Below, piece by piece: positions 8,899 to 55,099 of a DNA stretch of 64,000 bases. The notes under the pieces were generated by a model. That model was not told the origin of the DNA. It made no database searches and worked only from the letters and a program-made list of their open reading frames with translations. The DNA is from Candidatus Latescibacterota bacterium (lineage in GTDB: Bacteria > JAAXHH01), in assembly GCA_022822725.1 (NCBI GenBank), contig JAJEAN010000007.1:998382-1062381 (forward strand). Reading direction: 5' to 3'. Position numbers and translations under genes: made by a program. Positions within the stretch are counted from its first letter, which is position 1; each line of letters opens with the position of its first letter.

Positions 8899-9546
8899 AT
8901 GACCGCATCTGTTTCCAATTTCGCCCTGGACGTCGTGGACCGGCATGCGCGGGAACCGGGCCGGGTCGCCCTGCGGTGGCAAAACACGGGCGGCGCCACG
9001 TCGGACGTGACCTTCCTGGACATGAAGATACGCTCCGAGAAGGTCGCCTGCGTGCTGCAACGCCACGGCGTGCGCCCGGGACACCGGGTATTCATCCTGC
9101 TGCCGCCATGCACGGCCTGGTGGGAGTCCGTACTCGGCTGCATGCGCGCTGGCGCCGTGGCCGTGCTGGGTCAGGACGCGTCCACGCCACAGGTGCTGAA
9201 GGACCAGATCAATCATTCCCGGTCGTCGCTGGTGATTGCGTCCGACGCCGTTGCGGACATGGTCGGCCGGATCATGGACGACTGCAGCCGGATCACCCAC
9301 TGGCTATCCGTAGGCTGGGAGCGCGAGGGCTGGGTGGATTTCGACCGTCGGGTCTCACTCGCTCCGGCCGGCTTCCAGTCGGTGGAAACGCGCGCGGCCG
9401 ATCCGTGCATCGTCGTGTACGACCAGGGATTGCCGGCCGTTGAAACCACGCACCGTCACGGCGATGAAGGATACGACCTCGCGCAGCTCGACGCTTGGCG
9501 CGACGGGCTGGCCATCACGATGCACGAGGCGTCCGGTCACCCATGA
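8899..9546 (+). CDS. N-terminal fragment of an acyl-CoA synthetase-like (adenylate-forming) protein
   Basis: The 215 residues resemble only the N-terminal lobe of medium-chain acyl-CoA/acetyl-CoA synthetases: NFALDVVDRHAREPGRVALR, then RPGHRVFILLPPCTAWWES, then MRAGAVAVLGQ. Where the ATP-binding loop TSGTTGxPK should be there is VVYDQGLPAVETTHRHGD, so the P-loop is lost, and the entire C-terminal half with the A8/A10 motifs is absent. The protein ends DAWRDGLAITMHEASGHP. It is not an obvious broken gene: it has a normal frame, a start 2 bp after the SDR stop, and its stop overlaps the CaiB start (ATGA). It cannot adenylate by itself; it may be a retained structural or binding partner, or a decaying gene. 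Confidence 0.72.
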   Translation: MTASVSNFALDVVDRHAREPGRVALRWQNTGGATSDVTFLDMKIRSEKVACVLQRHGVRPGHRVFILLPPCTAWWESVLGCMRAGAVAVLGQDASTPQVLKDQINHSRSSLVIASDAVADMVGRIMDDCSRITHWLSVGWEREGWVDFDRRVSLAPAGFQSVETRAADPCIVVYDQGLPAVETTHRHGDEGYDLAQLDAWRDGLAITMHEASGHP

Positions 9547-10703: not shown

Positions 10704-10724
10704 CCGAATCCCAAAGGAGATATC

Positions 10725-12413
10725 ATGAGCATCCGCGTGCGAAACTGGCGCGACCAGGCGCCTTATGTCGGGCATATCAGCGCGCTGGTCTGGACGCTGT
10801 ACCAGTCCCATGACAAAGACGAGAATTCTCCGCCGAAAATAAATCGGCTCAACGGCATTAACAGCTTCGTCAAACACGGGCTCCAGGGCCACCAGCATTC
10901 GGACCACCACCAGCATGACAACATCGAGCAGCTGTATTTCATCCTCCGCGGACGCGGCCAGTTGCTGATCGGGGACGACAAGGTGGACGTCCGGGACGGC
11001 ACGGCCGTCTACATGCCCGTCAACGTGCCCCATCAGGCGTTCAATGACGGGGAAGGCTGGATGGAGCACCTGATCGTCAGCTGCCCGCTCGATGAAATCC
11101 GGGAGGGCACGCCCGCGGTGCGGGACTGGCGGGACGTACATCCGGTCGTGCTGGAAGGCGGTACCGTTTCCTGGCCGCTGCTGCGGTGCGAGGAGGATGC
11201 ACCGGCCGCAGAGGGCGGCGTGCTCCAGCGTGTGCAAAGCGTGAACCGCTACGCGGTCCAGGGACGCCAGGGAACCGCCTGGCAGCAATTGGACGGCATC
11301 GAGCTGGTCCACTACGTGCTCAGTGGGTTCGGCGTCGTCGAAGACCTGGACGGGGACCGTCAGCTGGTCACGGAAGGCTCCGCGGTCCACGTGCTGCCCG
11401 GGGTTGCGCATCGATTCGCCAACCAGGGCGAGGGCTGGCTCGAGTTCGTCACGTTCGCGGTCGAGGTAGGTGAGGTCGAAGCGCCGGACGAATCCGGCGA
11501 GTTCGCGGAATCCGAGGAGCCGGTGGAGCAGTTCGAGGTCGAGGAAGTTGCCGCGGTCGGCGTGGTGGCGGAGGTCGATTGGGATGACGCCGACGCGGTG
11601 GAGACCGAAGAGGAAACCGAGGAGGACTGGGCCGACGATGGCGCTGACGATAGCTCCGACGATGGTGCCGACGATGACGCCGACGATGACGCCGACGATA
11701 GCTCCGACGATGGTGCCGACGATGGCGCCGACGATGACACCGACGATGACGTAGAGTCGACGCAGGCCGATGAAGAAGCGGTGGCTGTCGATGGCGCCGA
11801 TGTAGATACGGAATCCTCAGAAGACGCTGAAGACGAAGAAGACGCCGAATCGGCGCAGATCGAGGATGAGACGGACGCAGAAGTCGCCGCGGCTGCCGAT
11901 GAGGACGATGGCGCCGATGAGGAGGATGAGGAGGAATCGGCGCTGGCCGAGAATGAGACCGAGGACGCCGTTGAGGTAGAAGTTGACGATGGCGCCGATG
12001 AGGAGGATGAGGAGGAATCGGCGCTGGCCGAGGATGAGACCGAGGACGCCGTTGGAGCAGAAGTTGACGATGGCGCCGATGAGGACGAAACGGAAGAGGA
12101 AGTTGTAGCAGAAGATGTAGAGGACGTGGAAACGGAAGCGGACGCAGAAGACTTCGTTGACGCCGAGGACGAAGCGGACGAAGCGGACGTAGAGGACGTA
12201 GAGGACGTCGAGGACGCGGAAGAGGAAGCAGAAGAAGCCGACCGCGCGGACCAGGTCGAAACGGCCGCTGCGACGGCACAAGCCGAAGCGGACGACGACG
12301 AGTTCGACCTGGGTGATGACGATTCGGACTTCGATATCGAAGACGAGGACGAGACCGTCGAGGAGGACCAGACGGGGGAGGACTCCGATTCTCCGGATCC
12401 GGTCAGACGGTAA
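10725..12413 (+). CDS. double-cupin protein with a ~315-residue acidic repeat tail
   Basis: The 562-residue protein has an excellent ribosome-binding site (aaaggagatatc). Residues about 50-120 are a cupin with an exceptionally His-rich metal motif (HGLQGHQHSDHHQHD, then VPHQAF); residues about 170-247 are a second cupin (LPGVAHRFANQGEGWLEF). From residue 248 to the end the chain is almost only Asp, Glu, Ala and Val with scattered Ser/Thr/Gly. Inside the tail are a block of about ten tetrapeptide DDxx units (residues 304-342) and 27-residue repeats starting DDGADEEDEEES. The tail should be disordered and very negatively charged. The cupin part probably binds a sugar or acid or acts as an isomerase/dioxygenase; the tail function is unknown. 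It sits in the middle of the catabolic run. Confidence 0.85.
   Translation: MSIRVRNWRDQAPYVGHISALVWTLYQSHDKDENSPPKINRLNGINSFVKHGLQGHQHSDHHQHDNIEQLYFILRGRGQLLIGDDKVDVRDGTAVYMPVNVPHQAFNDGEGWMEHLIVSCPLDEIREGTPAVRDWRDVHPVVLEGGTVSWPLLRCEEDAPAAEGGVLQRVQSVNRYAVQGRQGTAWQQLDGIELVHYVLSGFGVVEDLDGDRQLVTEGSAVHVLPGVAHRFANQGEGWLEFVTFAVEVGEVEAPDESGEFAESEEPVEQFEVEEVAAVGVVAEVDWDDADAVETEEETEEDWADDGADDSSDDGADDDADDDADDSSDDGADDGADDDTDDDVESTQADEEAVAVDGADVDTESSEDAEDEEDAESAQIEDETDAEVAAAADEDDGADEEDEEESALAENETEDAVEVEVDDGADEEDEEESALAEDETEDAVGAEVDDGADEDETEEEVVAEDVEDVETEADAEDFVDAEDEADEADVEDVEDVEDAEEEAEEADRADQVETAAATAQAEADDDEFDLGDDDSDFDIEDEDETVEEDQTGEDSDSPDPVRR
11634..11750. repeat. 12-bp coding repeat (DDxx units) in the cupin tail
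   Basis: Nine consecutive 12-bp units begin with gacgat at 11634, 11646 and so on to 11741, followed by a partial unit to 11750. They encode DDGA, DDSS, DDGA, DDDA, DDDA, DDSS, DDGA, DDGA, DDDT. The DNA is much more uniform than protein selection on acidity alone would need, so recent slippage or duplication is likely. Confidence 0.92.
11904..12083. repeat. 81-bp coding repeat, two copies plus a partial, in the cupin tail
   Basis: Units at 11904-11984 and 11985-12065 encode nearly identical 27-residue blocks (DDGADEEDEEES followed by ALAE(N/D)ETEDAV), and a third partial copy starts at 12066 (DDGADEDE). The repeat stays in frame. Confidence 0.9.
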
Positions 12414-12425
12414 CAGAAAGCGTAC

Positions 12426-13322
12426 GTGAACAACCTACCCGCCCGTTCGTTCGGGCGAACCGGCATGCGTCCGGCGGCGCTGGCCATGGGAGCCGCCTTT
12501 CTGCACGAGAGCCCCGAGGCGGTCGAGGCCATCCAGACCGCCCTGGATCTGGGCGTCAACTATTTCGATACCTATCCGGGCCACCACGAGGAGAAATGGG
12601 GCGAAGCGCTCTCCGGCGTTCCCCGGTCCTCCTACTACCTCCAGGCCAAGATCGGCACCCACCCCGAACGCAGGAAGGACTTCTCCGGGGAAGGGGCCCG
12701 GTGGAGCCTGGACCAGAGCCTTCGAGACCTGAAGACCGACTACCTCGACTGCGTGCTCGTGCACGATCCAGCCGGTGTGGACGAGTTGCTGAAGGAAGGT
12801 GCGGTTTTCGATGTGCTTCGCGAAATGAAATCGCAGGGCGTGGTCAGAAACATCGGACTCGGCGCGCGGTCGCACGACTGGCACGTCCGGCTGATCGATG
12901 AAGGCATCTGCGATGTGTCCCTGACCTTCCTGGACTACACCCTGGTCAACCAGTCGGCCGCCGCCACGATCTTTCCGGCGGCCAGAAGGCGGTCTACGGG
13001 GATCATCCTGGCCAGCGTGCAGGGCATGGGCCTGCTGACCGGACAGGAGCCCGATCCGGATCGCGAACGGGGCATGCATCCCGGTTCCGAGCCGCGCGCG
13101 CATCGCATCTGGACCTGGTGCCGTGAGCACGGCGTCAACATCCGTCACCTGGCCATACAGTTCTGCCTGGCGGCGCCGGTGGACAGTATCGTCATGTTCG
13201 GGCCGGCAAGCCTCCGGCACGTCCAGGACGCCTACGAGGCCGCCACAGAAACGATTCCGGCCGAACTCTGGGAAGCGTTCGACCAGGCTTTCAGCATCCG
13301 CCCGGGCATGGATGCCGGGTGA
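12426..13322 (+). CDS. aldo/keto reductase family protein
   Basis: A 298-residue (alpha/beta)8 aldo/keto reductase starting at a GTG. It opens LPARSFGRTGMRPAALAMG; NYFDTYPGHHEEKWGEAL holds the Asp and Tyr of the catalytic tetrad, QAKIG the Lys, and VLVHDP the His. The loop after the tyrosine (PGHHEEK) differs from the usual YGxSE. It uses NAD(P)H to interconvert carbonyls and alcohols, probably of a sugar-derived intermediate. It lies 12 bp after the cupin gene and 146 bp before the next confident start. Confidence 0.87.
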   Translation: MNNLPARSFGRTGMRPAALAMGAAFLHESPEAVEAIQTALDLGVNYFDTYPGHHEEKWGEALSGVPRSSYYLQAKIGTHPERRKDFSGEGARWSLDQSLRDLKTDYLDCVLVHDPAGVDELLKEGAVFDVLREMKSQGVVRNIGLGARSHDWHVRLIDEGICDVSLTFLDYTLVNQSAAATIFPAARRRSTGIILASVQGMGLLTGQEPDPDRERGMHPGSEPRAHRIWTWCREHGVNIRHLAIQFCLAAPVDSIVMFGPASLRHVQDAYEAATETIPAELWEAFDQAFSIRPGMDAG

Positions 13323-54082: not shown

Positions 54083-55099
54083 ATGCCCGATCACCCCGCT
54101 AAGACCCTCTCTGATCTGCTGCCGCGCCTGGAAAGGCTGATGGGCCGCATCGAATCACTGGTCTCGGCCTATGCGGACGGACGGACCGCGCAGACCGACC
54201 GGACCGGTGAGTCCAGGCGGACCGGTGAGCCCGGGCAGACCGACGAGCCCGGGCGGACCGACGAGTCCGGGCGGACCGGCAGGCCCGGCAGACCCGGCAG
54301 GCCCGAAGACGAGTTCGCCGGATACATGGCATTCCGGTGGGGGAAGCGAGGAGGAAAGGGCTGCCTGGAACCCATCGCGCACCCCGACCTGGTGGAACTG
54401 TGCGATCTATTCGGCCTCGACCGCGAGATCGGCGTCCTGGACCGGAATACCCGCCAGTTCGTCCGGGGGATGCCCGCGAACAACGTGCTGATCTGGGGCG
54501 AGCGCGGAACCGGCAAGTCTTCGGTGGTGAAGGGACTCCTGGCCCGGTACGCCGGCGAGGGCCTGCGCATGATCGAAGTCCATCGGCGGGACCTGACGGA
54601 CCTGCCCGAGATCGTCGAACTCCTCTGGGACCGCCCCGAGCGTTTCGTCCTGTTCTGCGACGACCTGTCCTTCAAGGAAGACGAATCCGTCTATCTCGAG
54701 CTCAAGGCGCTTCTCGAAGGCAGCCTTTCCGCCCGGCCCGACAACGTACTCGTCTATGCCACGTCGAACCGCAGGCACCTGATGCCGGAGAAGCTCGCCG
54801 ACAACACGTTCCGGTTCAGTCCGGACGACGATGAAATCCACCCCCAGGAAACCGTGGAAGAGAAGGTATCGCTGAGCGACCGGTTCGGCCTTTCCATCGG
54901 TTTCTACCGGATTACCCAGGACACCTATAACCGGATCGTCCGCCACCTCGCCGGCCAGCGCGGCCTCGACGTGGACGCGGAACTGCTGAGGCGGGAATCC
55001 CTCCGGTGGCTTCAGCGCGCCAGCGGGCGTTCCGGCCGGGTGGCGCGGCAGTTCGTGGACGACCTCGAAGGCCGGTTCAAACTGGGTGATTTTCCGTAG
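54083..55099 (+). CDS. DUF815 ATPase
   Basis: A 338-residue AAA-like ATPase of the DUF815 family: [20 protein letters not shown] (Walker A), [20 protein letters not shown] (Walker B), then [20 protein letters not shown] and [12 protein letters not shown]. Residues 41-75 are a Thr/Gly/Pro/Arg-rich insert of six-residue repeats ([18 protein letters not shown]) that the family does not have; it sits between an N-terminal helix and the ATPase core. Function unknown. The C-terminus is Arg-rich and ends [10 protein letters not shown]. Confidence 0.9.
54203..54307. repeat. 18-bp in-frame tandem repeat in the DUF815 gene
   Basis: Units at 54203-54220, 54221-54238, 54239-54256 and 54257-54274 follow accg(g/a)(t/c)gag(t/c)ccgggcgg with small changes, and continue into nine-base units (ggcaggccc-like) to about 54307. 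The repeat does not interrupt the frame. Confidence 0.9.

Follow-up and report, generated by a model that had tools for sequence, protein, structure and literature searches.

The window analysed here is a stretch of 64,000 nucleotides from Candidatus Latescibacterota bacterium (contig JAJEAN010000007.1), and all positions are those of this stretch. An open frame of 562 codons without any interruption (10725-12413, plus strand) encodes a bicupin that continues into a long acidic tail. Its start codon is located 5 bases downstream of a strong Shine-Dalgarno sequence, and the residues read through this sequence (PKGDI/PKG..M) are retained ahead of the start codon in relatives. The features of the locus are as follows, all on the plus strand:

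10713..10719, plus strand: Shine-Dalgarno AAAGGAG of the cupin gene (direct reading of the sequence)
10725..12413, plus strand: bicupin with acidic tail, 562 aa (open frame; Pfam; 12/12 genus genomes)
10887..11066, plus strand: cupin domain 1, aa 55-114, canonical metal motif H62-x-H64-xxx-E68 ... H103 (Pfam Cupin_2; ligand invariance)
11217..11465, plus strand: cupin domain 2, about aa 165-247, HxH pair lost, E193 and H229 retained (second Cupin_2 stretch; PDB profile match; alignment)
11466..11630, plus strand: tail head, aa 248-302, with a conserved core at aa 280-302 (VVAEVDWDDADAVETEEE..) (genus alignment; dN/dS)
11631..12281, plus strand: variable acidic spacer built of repeats (TRF; genus alignment; codon comparison)
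11631..11748, plus strand: 12-bp tandem repeat (GCCGACGATGNC), 9.8 copies (TRF)
11904..12085, plus strand: 81-bp tandem repeat, 2.2 copies, 96% match (TRF)
12285..12410, plus strand: C-terminal cap, aa 521-562 (EADDDEFDLGDDDSDFDIEDEDETVEEDQTGEDSDSPDPVRR) (alignment of 11 complete genus tails; dN/dS; single copy per genome)

A sequence-only reading of this DNA had proposed an in-frame acidic tail on a double cupin, with 12-bp and 81-bp internal repeats. The open 562-codon frame and the presence of the tail across the genus confirm the former, and TRF recovered both repeats. The gene lies in a cluster, conserved in the genus, of genes for a nucleoside hydrolase, an SDR, an AMP-binding fragment, a CoA-transferase III, the bicupin, an aldo/keto reductase (AKR), two amidohydrolases, a GDSL lipase and a GFO/IDH/MocA protein. 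The GTG start of the AKR gene lies 12 bases after the tail stop, an arrangement kept in all the complete copies of the genus (g1). In the same cluster, positions 8899-9546 (plus strand) encode a 215-aa N-terminal fragment of an AMP-binding (acyl-CoA ligase-like) protein, which ends about at the expected P-loop and has no recognisable P-loop (VVYDQGLPAVETTHR). Its length is kept in genus relatives, and a 210-aa copy (43% identity) adjoins the tailless bicupin of a relative from another genus (G012). This fragment is a conserved and probably non-catalytic half-ligase.

The first 247 residues contain two stretches matching Pfam Cupin_2 (PF07883), with 67.2 bits for a curated cut-off of 27.2. The four ligands of domain 1 (H62, H64, E68 and H103) are invariant in an alignment of 7 diverse homologues. 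Domain 2 matches the profiles of PDB cupins at positions 176-235; it reads WQQLDGIE where an order-level relative (L020) keeps YHRHEDFE, and domain 2 thus lacks the HxH ligands that a bicupin with two active metal sites would have. Two cupin domains are therefore present, as had been proposed, but the second is not intact, since it lacks the metal-ligand His pair. Likewise, the six His within 15 residues reported earlier do occur in the window (H51, H56, H58, H61, H62 and H64), but among relatives invariance is limited to H51, H62 and H64. H56, H58 and H61 are substituted in relatives, which leaves a special metal-related role of the His-rich cluster without support. The best reading of these alignments is a bicupin core with one putative working metal site in domain 1 and a degenerate second barrel. 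The core is itself mildly acidic (net charge of -14 to -20 across copies). The only NCBIfam match, (S)-ureidoglycine aminohydrolase (TIGR03214), reached 20.3 bits, far under its curated cut-off of 200 bits, and a PDB search with the bicupin returned no close relative.

The tail (residues 248-562, 315 aa) contains 51.7% of D+E and 26.3% of A+V, with no Lys, 3 Arg and a net charge of -160. It had been described as composed almost only of Asp, Glu, Ala and Val; these four residues do make up 78% of it, but much of the remainder is G, S, T and Q. The best 100 residues of the cupin ORF include 59 acidic residues, compared to 28 for the next ORF in the window. The net charge per residue is -0.51 for the tail and near -0.03 for the neighbouring proteins, which rules out a generally acidic proteome as the cause. 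Across the genus, the 11 complete tails measure 225-326 aa from residue 248 with 51-58% of D+E, and the net charge of the tail ranges from -114 to -178 in all copies, with basic residues nearly absent. The spacer differs in length among species and is barely alignable, yet its acidic fraction stays at 50-63%. The internal repeats vary across the genus while the head (VVAEVDWDDADAVETEEE) and the C-terminal cap (DDDDFDLEDDDADFDIEDEDETVVEDETGEDDDSPDADRR) are conserved; in the cap, F536, I538, T550, P557, R561 and R562 are invariant in 11/11 complete genus copies. This pairing of a variable linker and a conserved acidic tip at the C-terminus holds within genus g1 only. The cap occurs once per genome and on the bicupin gene only, ruling out a targeting tag shared by several proteins, for example an encapsulation peptide. 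The cap had no match in a search of the PDB. AlphaFold2 models (inputs of eight and seven sequences) had a mean pLDDT of 37, and the tail appeared without secondary structure, at a pLDDT of 37 throughout. Because these models were uninformative, we relied on the composition, which strongly favours disorder: the tail is probably disordered.

The cupin part was detected in 12/12 genomes of the genus, the other 11 at 87-94% identity, and was matched again in seven named records, all labelled as Latescibacterota or Gemmatimonadetes MAGs. The viral contigs scanned contained no relatives. In every genus copy the acidic tail continues in frame, the copy of one genome (G004) running off its contig. 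The tail is not an assembly or frame error, because the independent assemblies of the 12 genus genomes carry it, with a conserved stop and a conserved downstream start. In the sister genus g3 (G013), we observed an acidic tail with different repeats and a DEDIDLDVV element, without the g1 cap. This copy is interrupted by a contig end; what appears to be the last part of its tail lies on another contig, where a DUF218 gene comes next and the aldo/keto reductase gene after it. By contrast, the proteins of the next genus g2 (G012) and of two order-level relatives (G014 and G015) stop directly after cupin 2. Homologues with a stop near residue 250 had been named beforehand as evidence against the tail; they exist in these outgroups but not inside the clade. 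The tail was therefore added in this lineage and does not characterise this cupin family as a whole. In the cupin tree, the tailed genera g1 and g3 grouped with a support of 98/98, and the tailless genus fell outside. The AKR tree did not resolve the branching order of the genera. Since the cupin tree joins the tailed genera and leaves the tailless one outside, the simplest history of the tail is a single gain, in the common ancestor of these two genera of the Latescibacterota family.

To evaluate the selection acting on the tail, we compared dN/dS between genus members in the sense frame and, for the same columns, in the antisense register. In the sense frame, the cupins gave 0.08 and the cap 0.28, while the head gave 0.22 over its full length and 0.13 in its core; in the antisense register, the values rose to 1.9 for the cupins, 2.8 for the head core and 1.5 for the cap. 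Purifying selection on the head and the cap is seen in the sense frame but not in the antisense one. Among the 1,616 GAN codons of the 12 tails, third positions are near-randomised (GAC 463, GAT 324, GAA 461, GAG 368), whereas Lys (11) and Asn (16) together account for only 27 codons against these 1,616 acidic ones, despite an equally easy first-position change. In the spacer, 41% of the aligned identical D/E pairs differ in codon, and acidic-to-basic pairs number 45 compared to 3,373 acidic-acidic pairs. Overall, the tail is a selected protein sequence, in which the acidic fraction and the near-absence of Lys and Arg are held while repeats and length turn over. This bears on a by-product explanation, according to which the opposite strand would be the coding one, with hydrophobic antisense frames, or the tail would be untranslated read-through. 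Long minus-strand ORFs do lie opposite the tail (11360-12559, 11449-12279 and 11817-12281), and in the relative G013 a similar run of acidic codons (L123:1-60, G013:C181) is the complement of a hydrophobic stretch, so acidic runs found by DNA pattern require a strand check. However, the ORFs opposite the bicupin tail remain open, and are hydrophobic where they are in codon register, because GAN codons read back as NTC. The substitutions fall on sense third positions, the antisense dN/dS of 1.5-2.8 rules out antisense coding, and the neighbouring gene starts directly after the tail stop. We thus regard the by-product explanation as having almost no chance of being correct.

The long acidic tail is real and unusual for a bacterial cupin, within a known fold family. 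Searches of the open-access literature brought up no other cupin from bacteria with a tail of this kind. The earlier statement that no cupin with such a tail has been described holds for bacteria in the literature searched, but the 11S seed globulins of plants, which are bicupins too, have hypervariable regions that are disordered, one of them at the C-terminus, so a disordered extension on a bicupin has a precedent (PMC9537204). Like our protein with its probably disordered tail, the plant 11S/7S globulins combine a bicupin core with regions of variable length, which in the globulins are disordered and unresolved in crystals (PMC9537204), and one 11S globulin structure (3qac) gave a weak profile match to the bicupin. 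They differ in being eukaryotic storage proteins, and a relation between the tail sequences is not shown. The Cupin_2 bicupins (S)-ureidoglycine aminohydrolase, oxalate decarboxylase and quercetinase share the tandem barrels, with HxH..E..H in one, and also gave weak profile matches; in contrast to these, the window protein falls under every curated family cut-off and has metal ligands in one barrel only. To our knowledge, no bicupin of these types carries an acidic tail of 225-326 residues. Outside the cupins, SSB has a variable-length linker ending in a conserved acidic C-terminal tip. A non-conserved linker with an acidic tip on a beta-barrel core, acting in autoinhibition, has been described in Hfq (PMC5606850). 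Like these two disordered tails, the bicupin tail extends from a beta-barrel core as a linker of variable length and ends in a conserved acidic tip, but its linker is itself polyanionic and many times longer, and its core is a mildly acidic cupin rather than a nucleic-acid-binding fold. Eukaryotic D/E-repeat proteins such as HMGB1 have a disordered Asp/Glu-rich segment at the C-terminus (PMC10250230), where the bicupin has its probably disordered tail. Segments of this type sit on basic DNA/RNA-binding domains, which they autoinhibit, unlike the acidic bicupin core. Electrostatic autoinhibition as in HMGB1 or Hfq is therefore unlikely here, because the cupin core is acidic too.

Regarding the role of the tail, we consider a docking tether the most likely reading, with bulk negative charge alone a close second. 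The former, which we put forward tentatively, is an anchor-spacer-tip module in which the tail would tether or recruit through a docking tip on the bicupin. The spacer would behave as a highly charged, extended chain that repels itself, with little depending on its precise sequence or length, and its charge could keep the bicupin soluble and away from other polyanions during tethering or recruitment. The conserved acidic and aromatic tip would be a short linear motif that docks either on one specific partner, at a basic site, or on another cupin subunit. The invariant non-acidic cap residues (Phe, Ile, Thr, Pro and Arg) and the precedents for a non-conserved linker with an acidic tip in Hfq and SSB favour docking. 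On the other hand, bulk charge alone would explain the spacer, the cap could be conserved for reasons of stability or proteolysis instead, and the g1 cap is lacking in the sister genus g3, so conservation of the tip does not extend to the whole tailed clade. If only bulk charge mattered, the tail would be an entropic and electrostatic bristle keeping the bicupin soluble, spaced and off nucleic acids and membranes, without specific docking, and its repeats would grow and shrink neutrally while the charge is kept. This is possible, if somewhat unlikely: the acidic fraction is maintained despite the turnover of sequence and length, all copies are strongly negative with hardly any basic residues, and the tail would not fold back on a core that is mildly acidic. 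However, the head and the cap are conserved at a low dN/dS and keep hydrophobic, Thr, Pro and Arg residues invariant, which is more than charge alone requires, and the tailless relatives do without a tail.

Three other roles appear less probable than the docking tether or the charged bristle. With very dense carboxylates beside a metal-dependent fold, the tail could buffer many Ca2+, Mg2+, Fe2+ or Mn2+ ions near the cupin metal site or in the cytoplasm, following a calsequestrin-like logic. We find this unlikely, as Asp/Glu runs have low metal affinity and specificity, the extra His next to the metal site are not conserved, and such buffering makes the conservation of the cap unnecessary. Quite unlikely is a role of the tail as a polyanionic hub with the cap as a specific docking peptide, which would make the bicupin the bacterial equivalent of nucleoplasmin-like chaperones, beta-barrels with acidic tails, handling basic proteins or assembling enzymes, with cupin catalysis secondary. 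The sequence-only reading had suggested, besides a metal buffer, a phase-separating or scaffolding hub for the adjacent catabolic enzymes, in line with the conserved gene cluster and with a multivalent repeat tail on a commonly oligomerising fold. This seems very unlikely to us, since the neighbouring enzymes (SDR, AMP-binding, CoA-transferase, AKR, amidohydrolases and GDSL) are mildly acidic themselves (-3 to -14) and thus poor electrostatic clients, polyanions alone repel one another, and the tailless G012 still has the SDR and AMP-binding genes adjoining its cupin gene.

The bicupin offers a natural experiment, in which a small protein of enzyme fold gained a probably disordered tail with a net charge of -114 to -178 in a single bacterial lineage, and close relatives without the tail allow comparison. 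Twelve species keep its composition and not its sequence, a good test case for selection on long charged disordered regions in bacteria, where few such tails have been described on metabolic enzymes.

To look for further acidic tails, we used a codon pattern whose hits are restricted to stretches of 7 to 8 acidic codons. A lipoprotein-like protein of 522 aa (L069:3411-4979, minus strand; G000:C9, about 2416.4-2418.0 kb) consists of GDEDDEGDE repeats over its last two thirds; its gene adjoins a 2OG-Fe(II) oxygenase gene, and the protein is also present in G005 (L133). Three genus relatives (G008, G001 and G007) encode probably exported proteins (L131, L137 and L138, respectively) in which collagen-like GVQG repeats occur together with a trypsin-like domain and an acidic insert that varies. 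Finally, in the window, an 18-bp tandem repeat (54200-54310) within the ORF 54083-55099 (plus strand) encodes a Gly/Arg/Thr/Glu/Pro-rich linker in an ATPase-like protein with a loop motif.
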